DNA from: a virus
Virus record (IMG/VR): IMGVR_UViG_3300030101_004148
Span: 1-45,533 of that record
Direction: 5' to 3' (one strand)
DNA: 45,533 bases
Each line of letters starts with the position of its first letter. Position 1 is the stretch's first letter. Below the pieces are notes generated by a model, which ran no database searches, was not told the origin of the DNA, and saw only the letters and a program-made list of their open reading frames with translations. Position numbers and translations under genes: made by a program. Shown here piece by piece: positions 3,200 to 41,781 of this stretch.

Positions 3200-3515
3200 A
3201 ACAGAAGATTTAATTAAACAGGTAGGTAAAGAAGTTGTCCTTCTGCTACTTGAAAAGAACAAGGCCTATGGTGACACGGCTAATAATCCACCACAAATTT
3301 TTAGTAAGCTATCTCCTAAAGAAGGGTTGCTTGCTCGTATTGATGACAAGCTTAGCAGAATAAAGCAGAAGGGTTTAAACGACCTCACTGAAGATACTGT
3401 TCAAGACTTAATTGGTTATCTTATTTTATATAAGGTGCAAGTAAAGAAAGAAGAAAACAAAATCAAGGATATCTTGATTGAGGGAAAGAATCAAAAATTA
3501 AAAGAATTTAAATAA
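3192..3515 (+). CDS. DUF1599/nucleotide-modification-associated-domain-1-like protein (107 aa)
   Basis: The all-helical protein contains the pattern EKNKAYGDTANNPPQIFSK (residues 21-39), then LLARIDDKLSRI and a C-terminal DTVQDLIGYLILYK. This reads like DUF1599 proteins (nucleotide modification associated domain 1), which resemble MazG-type all-alpha nucleotide pyrophosphohydrolases. The Glu, Lys and Asp residues could bind metal and nucleotide. In a phage it would act on nucleotide pools or modified bases in the host cytoplasm. The substrate is not predictable. It is coupled to neighbours on both sides, including a one-base overlap with the next ATG. GTTTAAAC at 3373 is read as Gly-Leu-Asn. 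Confidence 0.6.
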   Translation: MVKTEDLIKQVGKEVVLLLLEKNKAYGDTANNPPQIFSKLSPKEGLLARIDDKLSRIKQKGLNDLTEDTVQDLIGYLILYKVQVKKEENKIKDILIEGKNQKLKEFK

Positions 3516-3820
3516 TGAAAGGAAATATATTTGAAGCGTATGCGAACGCGGTTGCTAAACAATTTCATCTTGAATTAGATGAGATGTTTAATAAAGATAA
3601 ACGAAGAGACTTGGTTGATGCCAGGCAAATGCTTTATTACTTATGTATGGAAAGACCTATTAGAGTTTCTTATATACAAAGGTACATGGCAGAGCATGGC
3701 TGTGATGTTTTTCACTCCACTATTATTCATGGCTATAAGAAAGCTAAAAAAATGGTAGCTGAAGATGAAGACTACAAGGCTATCGTAGAATTAATAGAAC
3801 TACAGAATTTAAAAGTATAG
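3515..3820 (+). CDS. DnaA domain-IV-like DNA-binding protein (101 aa)
   Basis: The C-terminal two-thirds follow the DnaA domain IV plan. A helix containing DARQMLYYLCMERPIRV (about residues 36-52) is followed by a recognition-helix region with FHSTIIHGYKKAKK (about 66-79), the equivalent of the DnaA signature around DH(S/T)T(V/I)xHA. There is no AAA+ ATPase domain, so it is not an initiator by itself. It likely binds duplex DNA in replication or transcription control. A second protein of the same kind is encoded at 10344-10757. Its target is unknown; the GTTTAAAC repeats are one candidate by inference. Confidence 0.6.
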   Translation: MKGNIFEAYANAVAKQFHLELDEMFNKDKRRDLVDARQMLYYLCMERPIRVSYIQRYMAEHGCDVFHSTIIHGYKKAKKMVAEDEDYKAIVELIELQNLKV

Positions 3821-33547: not shown

Positions 33548-34687
33548 TTAAACTTTTTTAATACTTCTAATTTTGAGACCTCTACCACTCGAAGTATCTC
33601 CTACAGCTTTTATTTTTAAACTATTTTTCGTGCTAAGTTGCGGGGCTCTACGAACATCCATATTGATATTCTTAGATTTTCTTGCTACATCATCTACTGT
33701 TGCAGCAACACCCTGCTCATAAAAGAACTTTGCAAACTTTTCAGGATTCATGGCTATTGACATAGCTCTGTGATATCCTGCTGCGTCTTTCATAAGTCCA
33801 TTCTCATCATTATATTTTGAGATGAAATTATTAAAATCCATTTGCTTGTTCTTTAATTCTTCAGCAGTCCCTGGTTTATAGAGAATTGATTTGTCGTCGC
33901 TAACGTTAAACTCAAAACCTTTGAATTCTTCGCCAAACACTTTGTTTGTACGCTCCTCAAAATTTTTTCTCATAAGCTGGAAGCTTTCCTTCTGAGAGTT
34001 AGATTCCTCTAACATTGTCTTGTAAGCATTAAGATTGTTTTCTTGTTCATCAGATAATCCACCCCCACTTGACTCAAGGGGAACTTTATACTTATCTTTC
34101 TGTTCTTTAAAAAACTTTCTTGCTTTTGCAAGCTCTCTCTTTTTAGCTAACTTTTTCTTCTTAATATCTTTTTCGTCATCTTCTTCACTATCGTATCCGA
34201 ATCTGTCGTCCATGATATCTTGAATATCTATAGCGTCAAGACCTTCTTCTTGAACACCAAGATAATCAGCTAAAACCGAATCTTCATCCATGTCATCGTA
34301 GTTCTTTTGTAATTTATAAAAGTCCTCGATTCCACGGCCTGTTTCTTTCTTATAATCAAAATACAATTTAACATCTTCAGGTAAATCTGGATTTGATTCT
34401 TTAGTTTCAAATAATTCTTCAACTGAGTTGATGTCTTTGTTGTACCTCTCTTTAATAAAATTAAGAACATGTTCGTCATTTAACTCTGACGAGGGAGTTT
34501 TTTCTTCTACAGCTGGAGTTTCCTCAGCTGGTTTCTCCTTCTCTTCTGCTTTTGGTTCAACCTTTTCAGGTTTTTCCTCCGCTTGAGTTTCTTGTTGTTG
34601 AGCTTCGTGTTTTTTTAACAACTGCTCTTCTATTTCGGCTTTTGATTTTTGAGTGTTACCGTCCACTGCTTTTACTTTTATTTCCAT
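33548..34687 (-). CDS. Scaffold-like protein (379 aa)
   Basis: Located immediately before the MCP gene. The sequence is highly charged, with a Glu/Lys/Ala/Pro linker up to about residue 65, then helical Asp/Glu-rich segments, a Lys-rich coil (DEKDIKKKKLAKKRELAKA near residue 172) and a basic C-terminus with GRGLKIRSIKKV. This is the composition of phage scaffolding proteins, which guide prohead assembly and leave or are cleaved. No protease motif is visible. Confidence 0.65.
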   Translation of the reverse strand: MEIKVKAVDGNTQKSKAEIEEQLLKKHEAQQQETQAEEKPEKVEPKAEEKEKPAEETPAVEEKTPSSELNDEHVLNFIKERYNKDINSVEELFETKESNPDLPEDVKLYFDYKKETGRGIEDFYKLQKNYDDMDEDSVLADYLGVQEEGLDAIDIQDIMDDRFGYDSEEDDEKDIKKKKLAKKRELAKARKFFKEQKDKYKVPLESSGGGLSDEQENNLNAYKTMLEESNSQKESFQLMRKNFEERTNKVFGEEFKGFEFNVSDDKSILYKPGTAEELKNKQMDFNNFISKYNDENGLMKDAAGYHRAMSIAMNPEKFAKFFYEQGVAATVDDVARKSKNINMDVRRAPQLSTKNSLKIKAVGDTSSGRGLKIRSIKKV

Positions 34688-34703: not shown

Positions 34704-34711
34704 CAAAATTA
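34704..34711 (-). promoter_or_regulatory. Candidate -7 element upstream of the scaffold-MCP genes
   Basis: TAATTTTG on the - strand matches TAnnTTTG and ends about 16 bases before the scaffold ATG. The upstream -33 box is weak (TTG, too close). It could add a dedicated promoter for scaffold and capsid. Confidence 0.35.
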
Positions 34712-34732: not shown

Positions 34733-35287
34733 TTAGGCGTTATTTAGGTGATTATATAAATCTTGTCCTAATTTTTCACCTATGTCTTTATCAGATTTAT
34801 AATGTACCCTGGCAACAATTCTGCTTTTAGAAACATTTTCTGCAACCTGTGTAAACTCTTTTTTCATTTCAGGAAACATGTCAGATAAAACTAAAGCTAT
34901 TAATTTACTTTGAGCAGAATGTCCAGAAGGAAATGCAGGAGTTTGAGCACTATCCATCTTATGATATTTTAAATCTATGCCAAAGTTTTTAGCTAATACG
35001 TTTGGTCTTTTCCTGTCGTGATAATTTTTTATACGCATTATTATAGGTTTGGATTTACCTATTAAATCCATAACTAACTCAGAAGGATATTCTCTTTTTC
35101 TATTTACAAAAAGACGTTTAAACGACTCATGTATATCGTCATACTTGTTAGCAAATGGTATATCTAATTTTTGAGTTTGTAATGATTTTATTTCATTAAG
35201 AGTTTTCAAACTAATATCTGAAGGATATTTTATTGACTTATATTTTTTGATATTGAAACCACTAAACATAGAAGGAATACTATCCAT
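34733..35287 (-). CDS. PAP2/class A acid phosphatase-like protein (184 aa)
   Basis: All three PAP2 signature blocks are present: K87-x6-R94-P95 (KNYHDRKRP), P120-S-G-H123 and S155-R-x5-H162-x3-D166 (SRIVARVHYKSD). These form the vanadate-like phosphate pocket with His123 and His162 as catalytic residues. No signal peptide or membrane helix is visible, so it is a soluble cytoplasmic or virion-borne phosphatase rather than a membrane lipid phosphatase. It lies six bases after portal and before scaffold in the packaging/capsid operon. Substrate unknown: lipid phosphate, undecaprenyl diphosphate, a nucleotide or a phosphoprotein are all possible. GTTTAAAC at 35116 lies within it. Confidence 0.8.
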   Translation of the reverse strand: MDSIPSMFSGFNIKKYKSIKYPSDISLKTLNEIKSLQTQKLDIPFANKYDDIHESFKRLFVNRKREYPSELVMDLIGKSKPIIMRIKNYHDRKRPNVLAKNFGIDLKYHKMDSAQTPAFPSGHSAQSKLIALVLSDMFPEMKKEFTQVAENVSKSRIVARVHYKSDKDIGEKLGQDLYNHLNNA

Positions 35288-35293
35288 AGAAAA

Positions 35294-37729
35294 TTATTTA
35301 GGTCCAAACTCTGCTAAATCAAAACCATCTAAAGTGTCTTCGTTTGATTCAAACTTTACTGCTGGTAAGTTTCTTTTTCTTTGTTCAATAAGTTTGGATT
35401 GCTGTGTGTTAGCTTGACTAATCCTATCTGATTTTCCTCTTTCTTTTGCTGCTTCTCTTTTGTCTATTTGAGATTGTTCAATGCCTTTCAACTGCATGTT
35501 ATAGGCAAATTCAGTTTCCATAAGTTGCGATTTTAACATAGCTTCGTTTTTCATTTTTTCTATTTCCATAGCAATCTCAGCTTGTTTTATTTGCATCTTA
35601 GATTGAGTTTCTGCAGCTATTCTTTGTTGCTCGGTTTGTGCAGCCATCATTGCTGCTTGTTGTTGCATTTGCGCTTGAGCAGCTTGTTGCATCTGTGCTT
35701 GCTGCTGTTCCATAGCAGCCTTTCTTTTTCTTTTAGTTTTTAAAAGTTGATTAGCCATTTTGAGATTATGAATCTCTCTAATATCTAACGCATCTTCTAA
35801 ATTGATATCATTTTTAGATAAAGCCATTTGTATGTTTGCTTCAAGCATCGCTCTTTCCTCTTCATCTGGTGCTAACTCTAAAAATATACCGAAACTATAC
35901 AGATATAAATTCTTAATATCTTCAAGTAAGTTTAAATTATATTTACCTATTTGCATAGCAAACTGGTCTTTGAAATCTGAATATTCTAAAACATCAGCTG
36001 TTCTTAATACTATACCCTCTGCTAATCTTCTGGTAATATACAAGCTCGCATTTAATATGTGCCTTGTAGCTGTATTAGAATTTAGAGCTGCTAATTTCTG
36101 TACACCAACCAAGGCATCTGGATTTGGTGTAGAACCATCGCGCGCTTCATTAAGACCTGTAACTGTTCTAATCATATCAAGATAATGATTATAGTTTTGA
36201 ATTAACATTTGCATTTTAGCACCACCACTATTAGATGTTAATTGTGTTATAGGAATTTTGGCATTATTAAATTCACCATCTTGAGTAAAACTTCTACCCA
36301 CTACACTACCTGTTTGGAAATAAAGCCTCAGAGCGTCTTCAGGATTGTAAGCATTACCAGTACCCAAATCAACTTCATTAAGCCCGTCAGCGTCTATAAA
36401 AACACCGTCAGGAACCATTCTGGATATTACCTGCTGCAGCTTCAAATGTGTTACTTGAATTAAATCTGCAAAAGGTATCATTCTTCTTACCAAAGATTCA
36501 TACATACCTTTATATAATCTTGGCGCACAAGCTACATAATTTGGTAAAGCATTTTGACTTGCAGCTTTTGGTCTTACCATATTTTCTGCAAGCTCCCATT
36601 TTAAAAGAATGTTTGTACCCATCACCATTATACCATCATACCAAACTTCTATCTTTTTTTCAACTCTCTCGAATTTACCTTCAACCATCATTTCTTCTGG
36701 TGGATTGAAGCTTTCATCTTTTTGTACTACTTTAAAAGTGCCATCAGGCATTTCTTTTCTTTTGTAAACGAAAGTATGTGTGGTTTTATAATTAAAATAT
36801 AGTAATGTACAAGTGTCTCTATAAAACAAAGAGTTTTCATAATACTGTGCATTGTTATAATAATTATACCATGACTGACTATACTTTGCAATTTCCTGCA
36901 TATCTTCATTTGTAATATCAGGATTTATTTTTACAAGTTCAGCCATAGGTATAGTTTTCAATTCACCCCAATAAAAACAATCTTTGAAATAAGGGTCTTC
37001 AGTATAACTATAAACTACATTAGCTGGGTCAACATAATTAATTTCTATACCTTGACCAGGCAAAAACTGATGTTTAGTCATACCCACACCAATAGTCATA
37101 ATATCATAATCAACTCTTTTACGAATATCTTGATAATGATTTTGATTTAATACTGTATCTATAGCCTCTTCAGCTGCAATCTCCACAGCAGGTTTATATT
37201 TCATTTGCATGAACAATTCCAGCTCTTCATCGTTTTCTGGTAAATCATCCTCAGCGGTTTGAAATACATTGAGCTCAAAGTCCTCTTCTATTTGTTGAAA
37301 TAAAGGACGAGCAATCATTTCACCTTCTACTTTCTTTTGAAACGCATCTCTTTTTTCAGCAGACATTGCGTCTTCCGCAAAAGCGTTTACTTTAAATAGT
37401 CTATCATTTAAACCATTTACAACTATGTCTACAAATTTTGGAATTATTGGAACTGGTGTCCAATCTAAATTAAGGTAAGATAAATCACCATCAATGGCAA
37501 TCTCATTTTTATACTTTTGTACAGACTGCTCACCCCTTGCGTATAATCGTAATCTATTGAATTCAGCCCACTGATTTAAATACCTACAGGAGCCATTATC
37601 TTTTCTAAACCACTCGTATTGAATTGCCTGCCCAACTTGCAGTCCATACTCAGCAGTATCTTTTTGAGCATCAGTGGCAAATTCATCTGGGAATGCAGCT
37701 GCTTTTAAGTTAATTTCTACTTGTTTCAT
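35294..37729 (-). CDS. Portal protein (811 aa)
   Basis: The sequence has the portal layout of crAss-like phages. A helical N-terminal segment precedes LYARGEQSVQKYKNEIA, then PVPIIPKFVDIVVNGLND (about residues 92-109). A long mixed core includes VDYDIMTIGVGMTKHQFLPG and YVDPANVVYSYTEDPYFKD, followed by helices with the AALNSNTATRHILNASL stretch. The C-terminus is a long Gln/Ala-rich coiled coil (barrel/crown). It forms the dodecameric DNA channel. The ATG overlaps the TerL stop by an ATGA junction. Confidence 0.75.
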   Translation of the reverse strand: MKQVEINLKAAAFPDEFATDAQKDTAEYGLQVGQAIQYEWFRKDNGSCRYLNQWAEFNRLRLYARGEQSVQKYKNEIAIDGDLSYLNLDWTPVPIIPKFVDIVVNGLNDRLFKVNAFAEDAMSAEKRDAFQKKVEGEMIARPLFQQIEEDFELNVFQTAEDDLPENDEELELFMQMKYKPAVEIAAEEAIDTVLNQNHYQDIRKRVDYDIMTIGVGMTKHQFLPGQGIEINYVDPANVVYSYTEDPYFKDCFYWGELKTIPMAELVKINPDITNEDMQEIAKYSQSWYNYYNNAQYYENSLFYRDTCTLLYFNYKTTHTFVYKRKEMPDGTFKVVQKDESFNPPEEMMVEGKFERVEKKIEVWYDGIMVMGTNILLKWELAENMVRPKAASQNALPNYVACAPRLYKGMYESLVRRMIPFADLIQVTHLKLQQVISRMVPDGVFIDADGLNEVDLGTGNAYNPEDALRLYFQTGSVVGRSFTQDGEFNNAKIPITQLTSNSGGAKMQMLIQNYNHYLDMIRTVTGLNEARDGSTPNPDALVGVQKLAALNSNTATRHILNASLYITRRLAEGIVLRTADVLEYSDFKDQFAMQIGKYNLNLLEDIKNLYLYSFGIFLELAPDEEERAMLEANIQMALSKNDINLEDALDIREIHNLKMANQLLKTKRKRKAAMEQQQAQMQQAAQAQMQQQAAMMAAQTEQQRIAAETQSKMQIKQAEIAMEIEKMKNEAMLKSQLMETEFAYNMQLKGIEQSQIDKREAAKERGKSDRISQANTQQSKLIEQRKRNLPAVKFESNEDTLDGFDLAEFGPK

Positions 37730-39975
37730 TTATTAATAATTCGACTAACTTTTTCGCTGTTGTTATATCTTGCAAAGTTAATGCTAATTTTTGTCTTTTC
37801 TTTAGTCGGTGTATATAAGTGTTTTTGGTTAGCCATTATAGCTAAACCAGAACTTATAGAAGCGTCAAACTTAGTTCTATTACTAATATCAAACTTAGCC
37901 CAATCTTCAAGTGTTCGTTGAAAATACATACTACCCATATCACCTTCTGTCCTATACACGCCATCCAAATCAATTCCTATATTCTTTTCAATATATGATT
38001 CAATAGCAGATGCGTGTGATTGTTTTACATCCTCTGACGTGTTTGGTATACCCCCTAACTCTCTTTCAGTTTTAGAAAGTTTATTAAACGTTTTGTCAGG
38101 TCTGTTTAAACAAAACCCTCGATATCCTCTATTTTTAAAATGATATAACAATCGAGGTTTATTATTTTCACATAATATAGGCATGCCATAAAAAACACAT
38201 GCCATCAATACTTCCTCAAAAAATATTTCAGCTGTTTGTGGTCTTGCTATGTATTCCAAAAAAAAATGACTACTTGGAATTTCTTCCATACTAAACTTAG
38301 TTAAACCGTGTAAAGAGCCATTAGAACCTTTACCTACTACAACACCTGATATATCATAAGAGTCGCAACCAAATGAGCCTAAATGTTCATTGCCAGGAAA
38401 GAACCTATTATTCTTTCTAATAACGTTGTTTTGAAGAGAGCGTTTAGGAATGTAAGTTACAAAAAATCTTCCTCTTTTATTTGGAGTCCACACAACATTG
38501 GTATCTTTAATTCCATTTTCCCAACTAAAAGAACCTTGAGTTATAAAATGTTCTTTAATTATACTATCATTGTAATCAATCTGTTGATAAATTTTAGTTA
38601 GATTAAATATTGATTGTTTACTTTCATCTCTGAAAGCATGTGACTCTGAGCGAGGAAATTGCCTGTAGTATTCATTAAGTGCATCTGGGTCATTTTTCAA
38701 AGATATTACTTCGTTTTCCCAATAATTAACTGCACCTTGGTATATAGCTTCATCATCTATGCCTACTACCTCTTGACTCGGTGTGTTGAGAACAGGCATT
38801 CCATATCTATCTATAAAACCTTCCATGTTCCACTCCATAGGTACAAATAAAGAATACAACCCGCTTTTTGTCTGTCCATTTGCATTTCTTTTAGTACAAT
38901 CAGAATCATTATATAAGCTTTTAAAATTTCTTCCTCCTTTATCTAAAGCATTTGATGTTGAGCCCATCATACATTTACCAATAATTTTACTACCTAATCT
39001 TAAACAAGTTTTTGTAACCCTCCAGTTATTTAATATGTTTTCAGGTTTTTCCCATTTACCACTTTCATCATGTATTAATAGTTGTAACTTCTCACCATCA
39101 TAACTATTATCAGAAGTATTCTTCCAATCTATAGTAGTATCCAGACCTTCTAAAACTTCTTCTTCAATATTAAACATATTTTTCTTTGTAATTTTTGAAG
39201 CTGGCACTCTATAAGCTAATTCAGTTTTTGGCTTATCCATACCATCTTGTATTGGTTTAAAAAAGAATGGATAATTGTTTGATATAGGAACTATTTTATC
39301 TGTAAACATTTTTTTTGCATCTGCTCCAGTTTTTGATAAAATTCCTATTCTGGCATTTTTAGTTATAGTGCCCGTATTTACACCTTCACAAGAACTCATA
39401 AATGAAAAACCAGAACGCCTAATTTTTAAATAACACATTCCGAAACTTCTATTGTCAGCTTTACATGCTTCCCAAAATAAATAAAATATTCTATTAGCTT
39501 CTCTATAATCAGGATGTCCAACATCAATTTTAGTCCACTGTAAATACATATAATGAGTGCCAGTGATATATGTAGGTTTACCATTATTCATAAACCAAAA
39601 TCCTTCTTCTCTTCTATTAAATTCTTCTTCAATGTAATCAACCCATTGATTTTTAAATGATGAGGGTGCTTCGTGCCATTGAAATATAGATGATATTCTT
39701 TTTAAAACAGCAGGTATTTCTGAAACCTGCCAATATTGCTCCTCCTTTTTGTCAGACCGTTTAAACACTTTCTTGGGCGTAGCAGGTAAAGCTATTCTTA
39801 AACCTGAAACATGTATAATATCTCCAATAGTTCCGTTCTTAGATATTATAATAACATCATACTTATCATTATAACCATACCTCCAAGTTCTTGCTTTGTT
39901 TTTGCGAGACAATATGTTAGCAGGAATTAATCCTTTACATAAATTAGAAATATTATTTTGATTTACGTTCTGCAA
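37726..39975 (-). CDS. terL: Terminase large subunit (749 aa)
   Basis: This is the packaging motor and nuclease. The ATPase half has a Walker A-like KIRRSGFS at residues 184-191 (a nonstandard P-loop, as seen in other large Bacteroidetes-phage terminases) and Walker B LQLLIHDE at 297-304. The nuclease half begins at GSFGCDSYDISG (Asp538/Asp541), with acidic residues farther on completing the RNase H-like metal site. Length is typical for crAss-like TerL. It overlaps the small-terminase candidate (23 bases) and the portal start. GTTTAAAC sites at 38104 and 39759 lie inside. Confidence 0.85.
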   Translation of the reverse strand: MQNVNQNNISNLCKGLIPANILSRKNKARTWRYGYNDKYDVIIISKNGTIGDIIHVSGLRIALPATPKKVFKRSDKKEEQYWQVSEIPAVLKRISSIFQWHEAPSSFKNQWVDYIEEEFNRREEGFWFMNNGKPTYITGTHYMYLQWTKIDVGHPDYREANRIFYLFWEACKADNRSFGMCYLKIRRSGFSFMSSCEGVNTGTITKNARIGILSKTGADAKKMFTDKIVPISNNYPFFFKPIQDGMDKPKTELAYRVPASKITKKNMFNIEEEVLEGLDTTIDWKNTSDNSYDGEKLQLLIHDESGKWEKPENILNNWRVTKTCLRLGSKIIGKCMMGSTSNALDKGGRNFKSLYNDSDCTKRNANGQTKSGLYSLFVPMEWNMEGFIDRYGMPVLNTPSQEVVGIDDEAIYQGAVNYWENEVISLKNDPDALNEYYRQFPRSESHAFRDESKQSIFNLTKIYQQIDYNDSIIKEHFITQGSFSWENGIKDTNVVWTPNKRGRFFVTYIPKRSLQNNVIRKNNRFFPGNEHLGSFGCDSYDISGVVVGKGSNGSLHGLTKFSMEEIPSSHFFLEYIARPQTAEIFFEEVLMACVFYGMPILCENNKPRLLYHFKNRGYRGFCLNRPDKTFNKLSKTERELGGIPNTSEDVKQSHASAIESYIEKNIGIDLDGVYRTEGDMGSMYFQRTLEDWAKFDISNRTKFDASISSGLAIMANQKHLYTPTKEKTKISINFARYNNSEKVSRIINK

Positions 39976-40228
39976 AGCCTTTTGGTAAATTATTAGTTTT
40001 TATTTCTTTTCCCTCCAACTTATCTCTTTCTTCATCTATTCGTTTAAGTATTTCAAAAGCATCAAATATAGCAAGCTTTTTTGTTGCGGCAGCATTTTTA
40101 AGTCTATCTGCTGCTAACTCATCATCTGGGTCTGGCTTTATAATTTTTTCTTTTGCAACATCGATTAATTCTTTAACAGCTTTTTCTCCAGCTTGTATAA
40201 TCTGTAATTTAATTGCTTTCGTGTCCAT
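39953..40228 (-). CDS. Candidate small terminase subunit (91 aa)
   Basis: A short, all-helical protein ending 23 bases inside TerL. Residues 5-27 form one helix (KLQIIQAGEKAVKELIDVAK), then DDELAADRLKNAAATKKLAIFDAFEILKRI and a basic tail. This size, helix content and position directly upstream of terL fit small terminase subunits, which bind packaging-start DNA as a ring. No helix-turn-helix can be proven by eye. Confidence 0.5.
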   Translation of the reverse strand: MDTKAIKLQIIQAGEKAVKELIDVAKEKIIKPDPDDELAADRLKNAAATKKLAIFDAFEILKRIDEERDKLEGKEIKTNNLPKGFAERKSK

Positions 40229-40787
40229 CTTTTAAAGTTATATTATTAGTATACATTCTGTATAGTTTTTCGTCGTCTATTTTAAATTCATACTCACTGT
40301 TAGGTTGAAATGATATTTTATCACCAGGCAATATGTTTAAACGTTCTAATTGTTTATTGCCGTATTTTAATATGCCCCAAAGTGGTTCTTCATTTTCAGC
40401 TACATCTATGTATTTTTTTTTGATAGGTATAGGTTTTACAAAACAATACTTGTCATGACTATACCACTTACCATTTTGTTTATACATATAAAATTGATAA
40501 TCATCAACTAAAAACAAATCATCTATAATCCAACTTCTACCACTTTTTTGTCTTCCATAAATATCGTTATAATATTTAAAAACATTATGGTGAACAACAA
40601 GAGTATCACCTTTTTTAATTTTTCCTTTGTAATTAATTGGAATATTTACTACAGTAGCAAAGCGTGTAGAAACAGTATGGTCTTCTTCAGATGTACTAAT
40701 AAAAAACTTTTTTTCACCATAATATTTTATATTATCATAACGCCTATCGTTGTAGGGTTTTACAATAAAACAAAAAGGTGATTGCAT
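40209..40787 (-). CDS. GroES/Cpn10-like co-chaperonin (192 aa)
   Basis: Two half-barrel patterns are visible. The N-terminal half has INYKGKIKKGDTLVVHHNVF and IIDDLFLVDDYQFYMY. The C-terminal half has LERLNILPGDKISFQPNSEY followed by EFKIDDEKLYRMYTNNITL, which resembles the end of GroES (GDxVLF...EVKIDGExYLIL...DIL). The protein is about twice GroES length, so it may be two GroES-like units or one unit with a long mobile region. A phage co-chaperonin would assist capsid-protein folding on host GroEL. It is embedded in the packaging operon, overlapping the small-terminase candidate. GTTTAAAC at 40335 lies within it. Confidence 0.6.
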   Translation of the reverse strand: MQSPFCFIVKPYNDRRYDNIKYYGEKKFFISTSEEDHTVSTRFATVVNIPINYKGKIKKGDTLVVHHNVFKYYNDIYGRQKSGRSWIIDDLFLVDDYQFYMYKQNGKWYSHDKYCFVKPIPIKKKYIDVAENEEPLWGILKYGNKQLERLNILPGDKISFQPNSEYEFKIDDEKLYRMYTNNITLKDGHESN

Positions 40788-41543: not shown

Positions 41544-41781
41544 CTGGTGTTTCTTTTTCTGGTTCTTTTACATCTCCAGTCCTTAAATCAATTACTGCGT
41601 TCTCGCCATAAGATTTTATAAGTTCTTTTTCTAACTCTCCAAATTGATTTTGAACTAAGTCTAAATTAGGAACTTTTTTTACTAATGCTACAAAAGCATC
41701 TGCTATCTCAATCTTAGTTTGTAAAAACTGTTGATTTAATTCTTGAACTTTTTTTAATTCTTCGTCTTTTAATTTTGCCAT
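41527..41781 (-). CDS. Small coiled-coil protein (84 aa)
   Basis: A single long helix with heptad-like spacing (DEELKKVQELNQQFLQTKIE) and an acidic/Pro-rich tail (EPEKETPDGKDK). It resembles short phage coiled-coil chaperones or trimerisation factors located next to fibres. It follows a TAnnTTTG element at 41810-41817. Confidence 0.55.
   Translation of the reverse strand: MAKLKDEELKKVQELNQQFLQTKIEIADAFVALVKKVPNLDLVQNQFGELEKELIKSYGENAVIDLRTGDVKEPEKETPDGKDK

Follow-up and report, generated by a model that had tools for sequence, protein, structure and literature searches.

What is a phosphatase gene doing among the packaging and capsid genes of a phage? The window analysed here, a stretch of 45,533 nucleotides, carries on its minus strand a PAP2-type phosphatase ORF at 34733..35287 (184 aa, ATG start, 28.6% GC, pI 9.7), with its ATG 6 nt after the portal stop. 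The predicted protein matches the Pfam PAP2 profile (PF01569) with E = 4.3e-9 and a score of 36.6 bits, against a curated cut-off of 27.2, and has no match below E = 0.1 among the PHROG families. An earlier note had placed all three PAP2 motifs intact in a protein with neither signal peptide nor membrane helix, and had known of no described role for such an enzyme at this place. Each of these statements is borne out by the analysis below, and our search of the open-access literature likewise turned up no description of phage PAP2 genes at a packaging locus.

The catalytic apparatus is complete. Motif 1 (KNYHDRKRP, 35003..35029, minus strand) contributes K87 and R94, motif 2 (PSGH, 34919..34930, minus strand) contributes H123, and motif 3 (SRIVARVHYKSD, 34790..34825, minus strand) contributes R156, H162 and D166, with the spacing K87-x6-R94-P95, P120-S-G-H123 and S155-R156-x5-H162-x3-D166. 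All six catalytic residues are invariant in an alignment of 57 sequences comprising the viral PAP2 family and distant cellular relatives, in which P95 is also conserved at 90% or more; by homology, H162 would be the nucleophile. The window's protein lacks a signal peptide or membrane helix, and the N-terminus of the viral members is hydrophilic. The hydropathy scan found no hydrophobic stretch, the best 19-residue Kyte–Doolittle mean being 0.58 in the window's protein and at most 0.88 in the 57 relatives. With a dN/dS of about 0.10–0.20, the viral family is evidently under purifying selection. The ORF is not a chance reading frame, because hundreds of relatives occupy the same slot under purifying selection.

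The AlphaFold2 model is of high confidence. With 10 close relatives as input the pLDDT was 41.5; the addition of distant viral and cellular relatives, to 57 sequences, raised it to 95.2, with a pTM of 0.91. In a Foldseek search of the PDB, soluble class A acid phosphatases take up almost the whole of the top 30, headed by the Pseudomonas aeruginosa acid phosphatase, PhoN, the Escherichia blattae acid phosphatase and PhoC, and the E-value for PAP2 enzymes reaches 4e-6, in keeping with the PAP2 helical fold; the B. subtilis PGP phosphatase (5jki) ranks 7th and LpxE 31st. The PDB sequence search agrees: its best match is PhoN (3.3e-8), other class A acid phosphatases are also among the best, and the alignment of the catalytic core to PhoN covers 90 columns with one gap. 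At moderate TM-scores to the class A enzymes (mostly 0.64–0.70, by query length) and some 20% identity, a class A substrate cannot be transferred to the phage protein. A viral protein of 176 aa in BFVD, A0A1B1IV46, is 41% identical with TM-scores of 0.91/0.95 and belongs to the same family. Cellular sequences are more remote, the best matching at no more than ~38% identity over short stretches. Recent acquisition of the gene from a host was considered and rejected: there is no close cellular source, and the best matches are distant and partial.

The genes around the ORF and the relatives of the portal show the kinship of the phage. All lie on the minus strand: TerL (37726..39975; phrog_6681, 1.5e-177) is followed by the portal gene (35294..37729; phrog_6547, 2.7e-141; Pfam P22_portal), the PAP2 ORF and a gene at 33548..34687, whose 379-aa product matches phrog_16786, of unknown function, and is a putative scaffold by position and charged composition. 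The next gene matches phrog_13704, a virion structural protein, and from its position would encode the major capsid protein. Portal relatives number 87 among 50,697 phage records, and all are phages of Flavobacterium (the elemo phages), Cellulophaga, Tenacibaculum or Maribacter, or one unclassified podovirus, Podoviridae sp. ctfjg026. Judged from these relatives, the window's phage is not crAss-like, and the membership of Crassvirales implied by the earlier note's suggested synteny search is not supported. The nearest isolates are Elemovirus, Maribacter phage Panino and the Cellulophaga podoviruses; together with ctfjg026 they have related portals, 45–67% identical in those listed. In ctfjg026, Panino and elemoF the order TerL–portal–scaffold–capsid is that of the window, with the difference that the scaffold gene directly follows the portal gene and the slot is empty. 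No PAP2 domain was found anywhere in ctfjg026, Panino or elemoF 6-3D, and a protein search of the phage collection returned just three weak partial matches and no close relative.

Other genes of this phage group were noted in passing. A GroES-like gene (40209-40787, minus strand; phrog_13932) lies two genes before TerL in the window, and a GroEL-like (Cpn60) gene occurs in L026 (10612-12225, minus strand). A possible phage origin-binding protein of 101 aa is encoded at 3515-3820 on the plus strand, in the neighbourhood of an exonuclease and a Sak annealing protein; it matches the DnaA C-terminal DNA-binding domain (Bac_DnaA_C, 5e-9).

Among uncultured viral contigs the picture is different from that in the isolates. 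Two scans of IMG/VR confirmed 125 and, with broader scope, 391 relatives of the PAP2 protein, and the best 80 of each were retrieved. Every retrieved copy with a readable portal end sits in the slot between the portal and scaffold genes, where it follows the portal gene immediately or after one small ORF. The earlier note had named absence from relatives' packaging operons as the observation that would count against it, and this applies to part of the sample: across 170 distinct portal loci PAP2 occupies the slot in 73, the slot is shorter than 120 bp in 84 and it contains something smaller in 13, proportions that are not population frequencies, the loci having been gathered partly via PAP2 itself. 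The smaller contents, where examined, are ORFs of 44–118 aa, mostly very basic. Small basic ORFs of this kind occur alone or before PAP2 in L048-L058, L138-L141, L153-L158, L169 and L174, and several have in common a start rich in Lys and Arg and a segment rich in Gly and Ala.

A comparison of near neighbours shows how cleanly the gene comes and goes. The flanks of loci L146 and L075 are 94% and 98% identical, and the difference between the two is almost exactly the PAP2 ORF. The portal tree implies at least 8 presence/absence changes of PAP2, 7 of them forced by well supported branches. A compensating PAP2 gene elsewhere in the genome was sought for empty slots and rejected, as none was found in the slot-empty records, several of which are near 60 kb. 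The PAP2 gene is therefore accessory and dispensable in close relatives, and has repeatedly been acquired, lost or exchanged at a single site in uncultured marine flavophage-like phages.

Swapping extends to the window's own allele. Nucleotide identity between the window and its nearest phages is 88–89% in the portal gene and 72–75% in PAP2, whereas the closest PAP2 (81%) is that of a phage with 86% identity in the portal. The window's portal clade is supported at 100/99, and forcing the window's PAP2 into that clade is rejected (p-AU 3.2e-5). This rejection, together with the mismatch in identity, indicates that the window's PAP2 allele was exchanged among related phages. Diversifying selection was rejected as a cause of the excess divergence, since dN/dS is far below 1 and dS is raised as well; exchange accounts for it instead.

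The record from which the window derives has an unusual structure of its own. Contig G000 (105,284 bases, of which the window is 1-45533) contains, at a distance of about 60.85 kb, two phage sequences that are related to each other (76% nucleotide identity over 12.5 kb); their PAP2 copies, at 34736 and 95588, encode proteins that are 58% identical. The palindrome GTTTAAAC has 29 sites in the window (118-40335), with 1.8 expected and none of 100 shuffles reaching 29, is densest in the early region at 1–9 kb, and is almost missing from the rest of the contig. The palindrome disappears after 40.3 kb and the contig's length comes to 44.4 + 60.85 kb, which together suggest that the assembly is chimeric, with a junction near 44 kb. 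The relative L290 is equally rich, with 29 sites in 20 kb, and L026-L028 have 1 in 59.6 kb; the palindrome is possibly a phage regulator or modification site.

The edge of the slot carries a second kind of signal. The element TAATTTTG (34704..34711, minus strand), 24 nt upstream of the scaffold ATG and thus at the downstream edge of the PAP2 slot, resembles the flavobacterial −7 promoter box, whose consensus is TAnnTTTG (PMC9723704). In the 60 nt ahead of the scaffold start the motif is present in 55 of 58 loci with PAP2 and in 55 of 59 without it; the 60 nt ahead of PAP2 contain it in none of 58 loci, against a background of 0.059 per 60 nt. In the window it also precedes the genes starting at 41781, 31165 and 30752, and one copy lies within the end of TerL. 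With the motif after PAP2 and none before it, PAP2 probably closes the terminase–portal unit, ahead of the capsid unit, and motifs and spacing together suggest a TerL–portal–PAP2 transcript. The earlier assignment to a packaging/capsid operon is thus correct as to the slot between portal and scaffold and goes too far in including the capsid transcription unit, from which the promoter-like motif before the scaffold would separate the gene. We infer that the end of the TerL–portal unit is the place where an extra gene harms least.

Genomes with PAP2 often carry, near GroEL, a lysis-like cassette consisting of a transmembrane coiled-coil protein (f43), a Trx-like protein (f46), an outer-membrane-barrel-like protein (f42) and an M15 peptidase. 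In the first genomes f43 was present in 8 of 8 with PAP2 and 0 of 6 without, and the next assessable records gave no exception. A strict partnership was nevertheless rejected when further genomes broke the link both ways: G451 and G452 have f42 and f43 without PAP2, G453 has f43 without PAP2, and G449 has PAP2 without f42. The co-occurrence more likely reflects a shared host lineage. The barrel-like protein measures ~410 aa and combines an apparent signal peptide with an outer-membrane-barrel-like C-terminus (L293 2187-3458, L284 8300-9529, L026 4895-6121 and relatives); it has no Pfam match and adjoins a Trx-like secreted protein and the M15 peptidase.

The reading that we favour, with somewhat more belief than doubt, is that the PAP2 protein would be a soluble, cytosolic, late phosphomonoesterase of soluble substrates, carried as optional cargo and not as part of the capsid machinery. 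It would be a compact phosphatase of class A-like build minus the signal peptide, probably made late on a message shared with terminase and portal. Because it has neither membrane anchor nor export signal, its most likely substrates would be soluble phosphate monoesters in the infected cell, such as nucleotides or sugar phosphates. Lys87, Arg94 and Arg156 would hold the phosphate while His162, positioned by Asp166, attacks it to form a phospho-histidine, and His123 would protonate the leaving group. The slot would be a tolerant site between two transcription units, with PAP2 as an optional occupant. The benefit may lie, most simply, in the late reuse of phosphate or nucleotides, with which the earlier note's suggestion of nucleotide recycling would agree, or else in getting rid of a phosphorylated metabolite harmful to the phage. 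What speaks against this reading is that cytosolic work by a class A-type enzyme would be unusual.

Several other roles have to be weighed against it. The pattern of patchy spread, gain and loss of an exact ORF and allele exchange, in a protein that evolves faster than its structural neighbours, is what would be seen if the enzyme took phosphate off a nucleotide signal of host defence, or off one of its phosphorylated effectors, and an arms race drove its gains, losses and swaps. The same pattern is expected of any optional cargo, however, and dN/dS is well below 1. The apparent late position is unusual for a counter-defence gene, and PAP2 enzymes strip terminal phosphates, so that cyclic nucleotides would stay closed. 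PADLOC gave no match, which is weak evidence as its library consists of defence systems. On balance we regard a counter-defence role as unlikely. Delivery of the protein at entry, packed in the capsid, which the earlier note had entertained, is in our judgement quite unlikely. The gene immediately follows the portal gene, small very basic proteins occupy the same slot in relatives and PAP2 is itself basic. Against packing, the gene is dispensable in close relatives and missing from the isolates examined, the promoter motif parts it from the scaffold and capsid genes, and the confidently modelled N-terminal segment can be aligned to the start of the class A enzymes, with no extra delivery tag seen; positive evidence for packing did not emerge.

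The earlier note had also offered envelope lipid phosphates or undecaprenyl diphosphate as substrates, and a phosphatase working on such compounds in the envelope during lysis would fit a superfamily that includes lipid enzymes, with PgpB and LpxE among the weaker fold matches, and the frequent company of the M15 peptidase, coiled-coil and putative barrel proteins. A protein that has no membrane helix and no signal peptide and resembles the soluble class A phosphatases makes this very unlikely, and the cassette link is not strict, given G451 and G452 on one side and G449 on the other. Most improbable of all is a catalytically idle or repurposed PAP2 fold with a binding or structural role: small size and the unusual cellular location that we assign to the protein might hint at it, but the catalytic residues are invariant from the viral family to distant cellular relatives, and the viral family is under purifying selection.

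The phosphatase matters in more than one way. The viral family to which it belongs is sizeable, is matched by no PHROG model and is absent from every isolate searched, and its one exact slot, with natural pairs of phages with and without the gene, makes its role directly testable between near-identical phages. If the substrate is a nucleotide or a defence signal, PAP2 would be one more means, beside those already known, by which marine phages alter the phosphate chemistry of their hosts. Other members of the PAP2 superfamily are known chiefly from membranes and the periplasm, and a cytosolic phage member that removes a phosphorylated host metabolite or defence signal would be a new kind of counter-defence or metabolic-takeover enzyme, an outcome that we consider fairly unlikely.

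Among known systems, phage auxiliary or 'moron' genes offer a close parallel in behaviour: like them, PAP2 is accessory, patchy and swapped as a single gene, and unlike a moron it has no promoter motif of its own in front. Membrane PAP2 lipid phosphatases (PgpB, LpxE and the B. subtilis PGP phosphatase) belong to the same superfamily and have the same catalytic motifs, the difference being that they are integral membrane proteins, whereas the phage protein has no transmembrane helix. The class A acid phosphatases (PhoN, PhoC and those of E. blattae and P. aeruginosa) have in common with it the PAP2 motifs, the core spacing and a soluble all-helical fold. They are normally periplasmic and bear the signature GSYPSGHT; the phage protein is shorter and without a signal peptide, and its family box reads FPSGHS[AT]Q (PAFPSGHSAQ in the window). 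L265, the closest Bacteroidota homologue that a search of 396 genomes found, is laid out like a class A enzyme and starts with a hydrophobic leader, which the phage proteins lack. Formal class A membership fails on the missing signal peptide, the missing class A box and a score of 22.9 bits with NCBIfam PhoC, far below the 430-bit cut-off; the protein would thus work like a class A enzyme while standing formally outside the class. The enzyme family is familiar, and this member is a conserved accessory phage PAP2 in a probably unusual cellular location.
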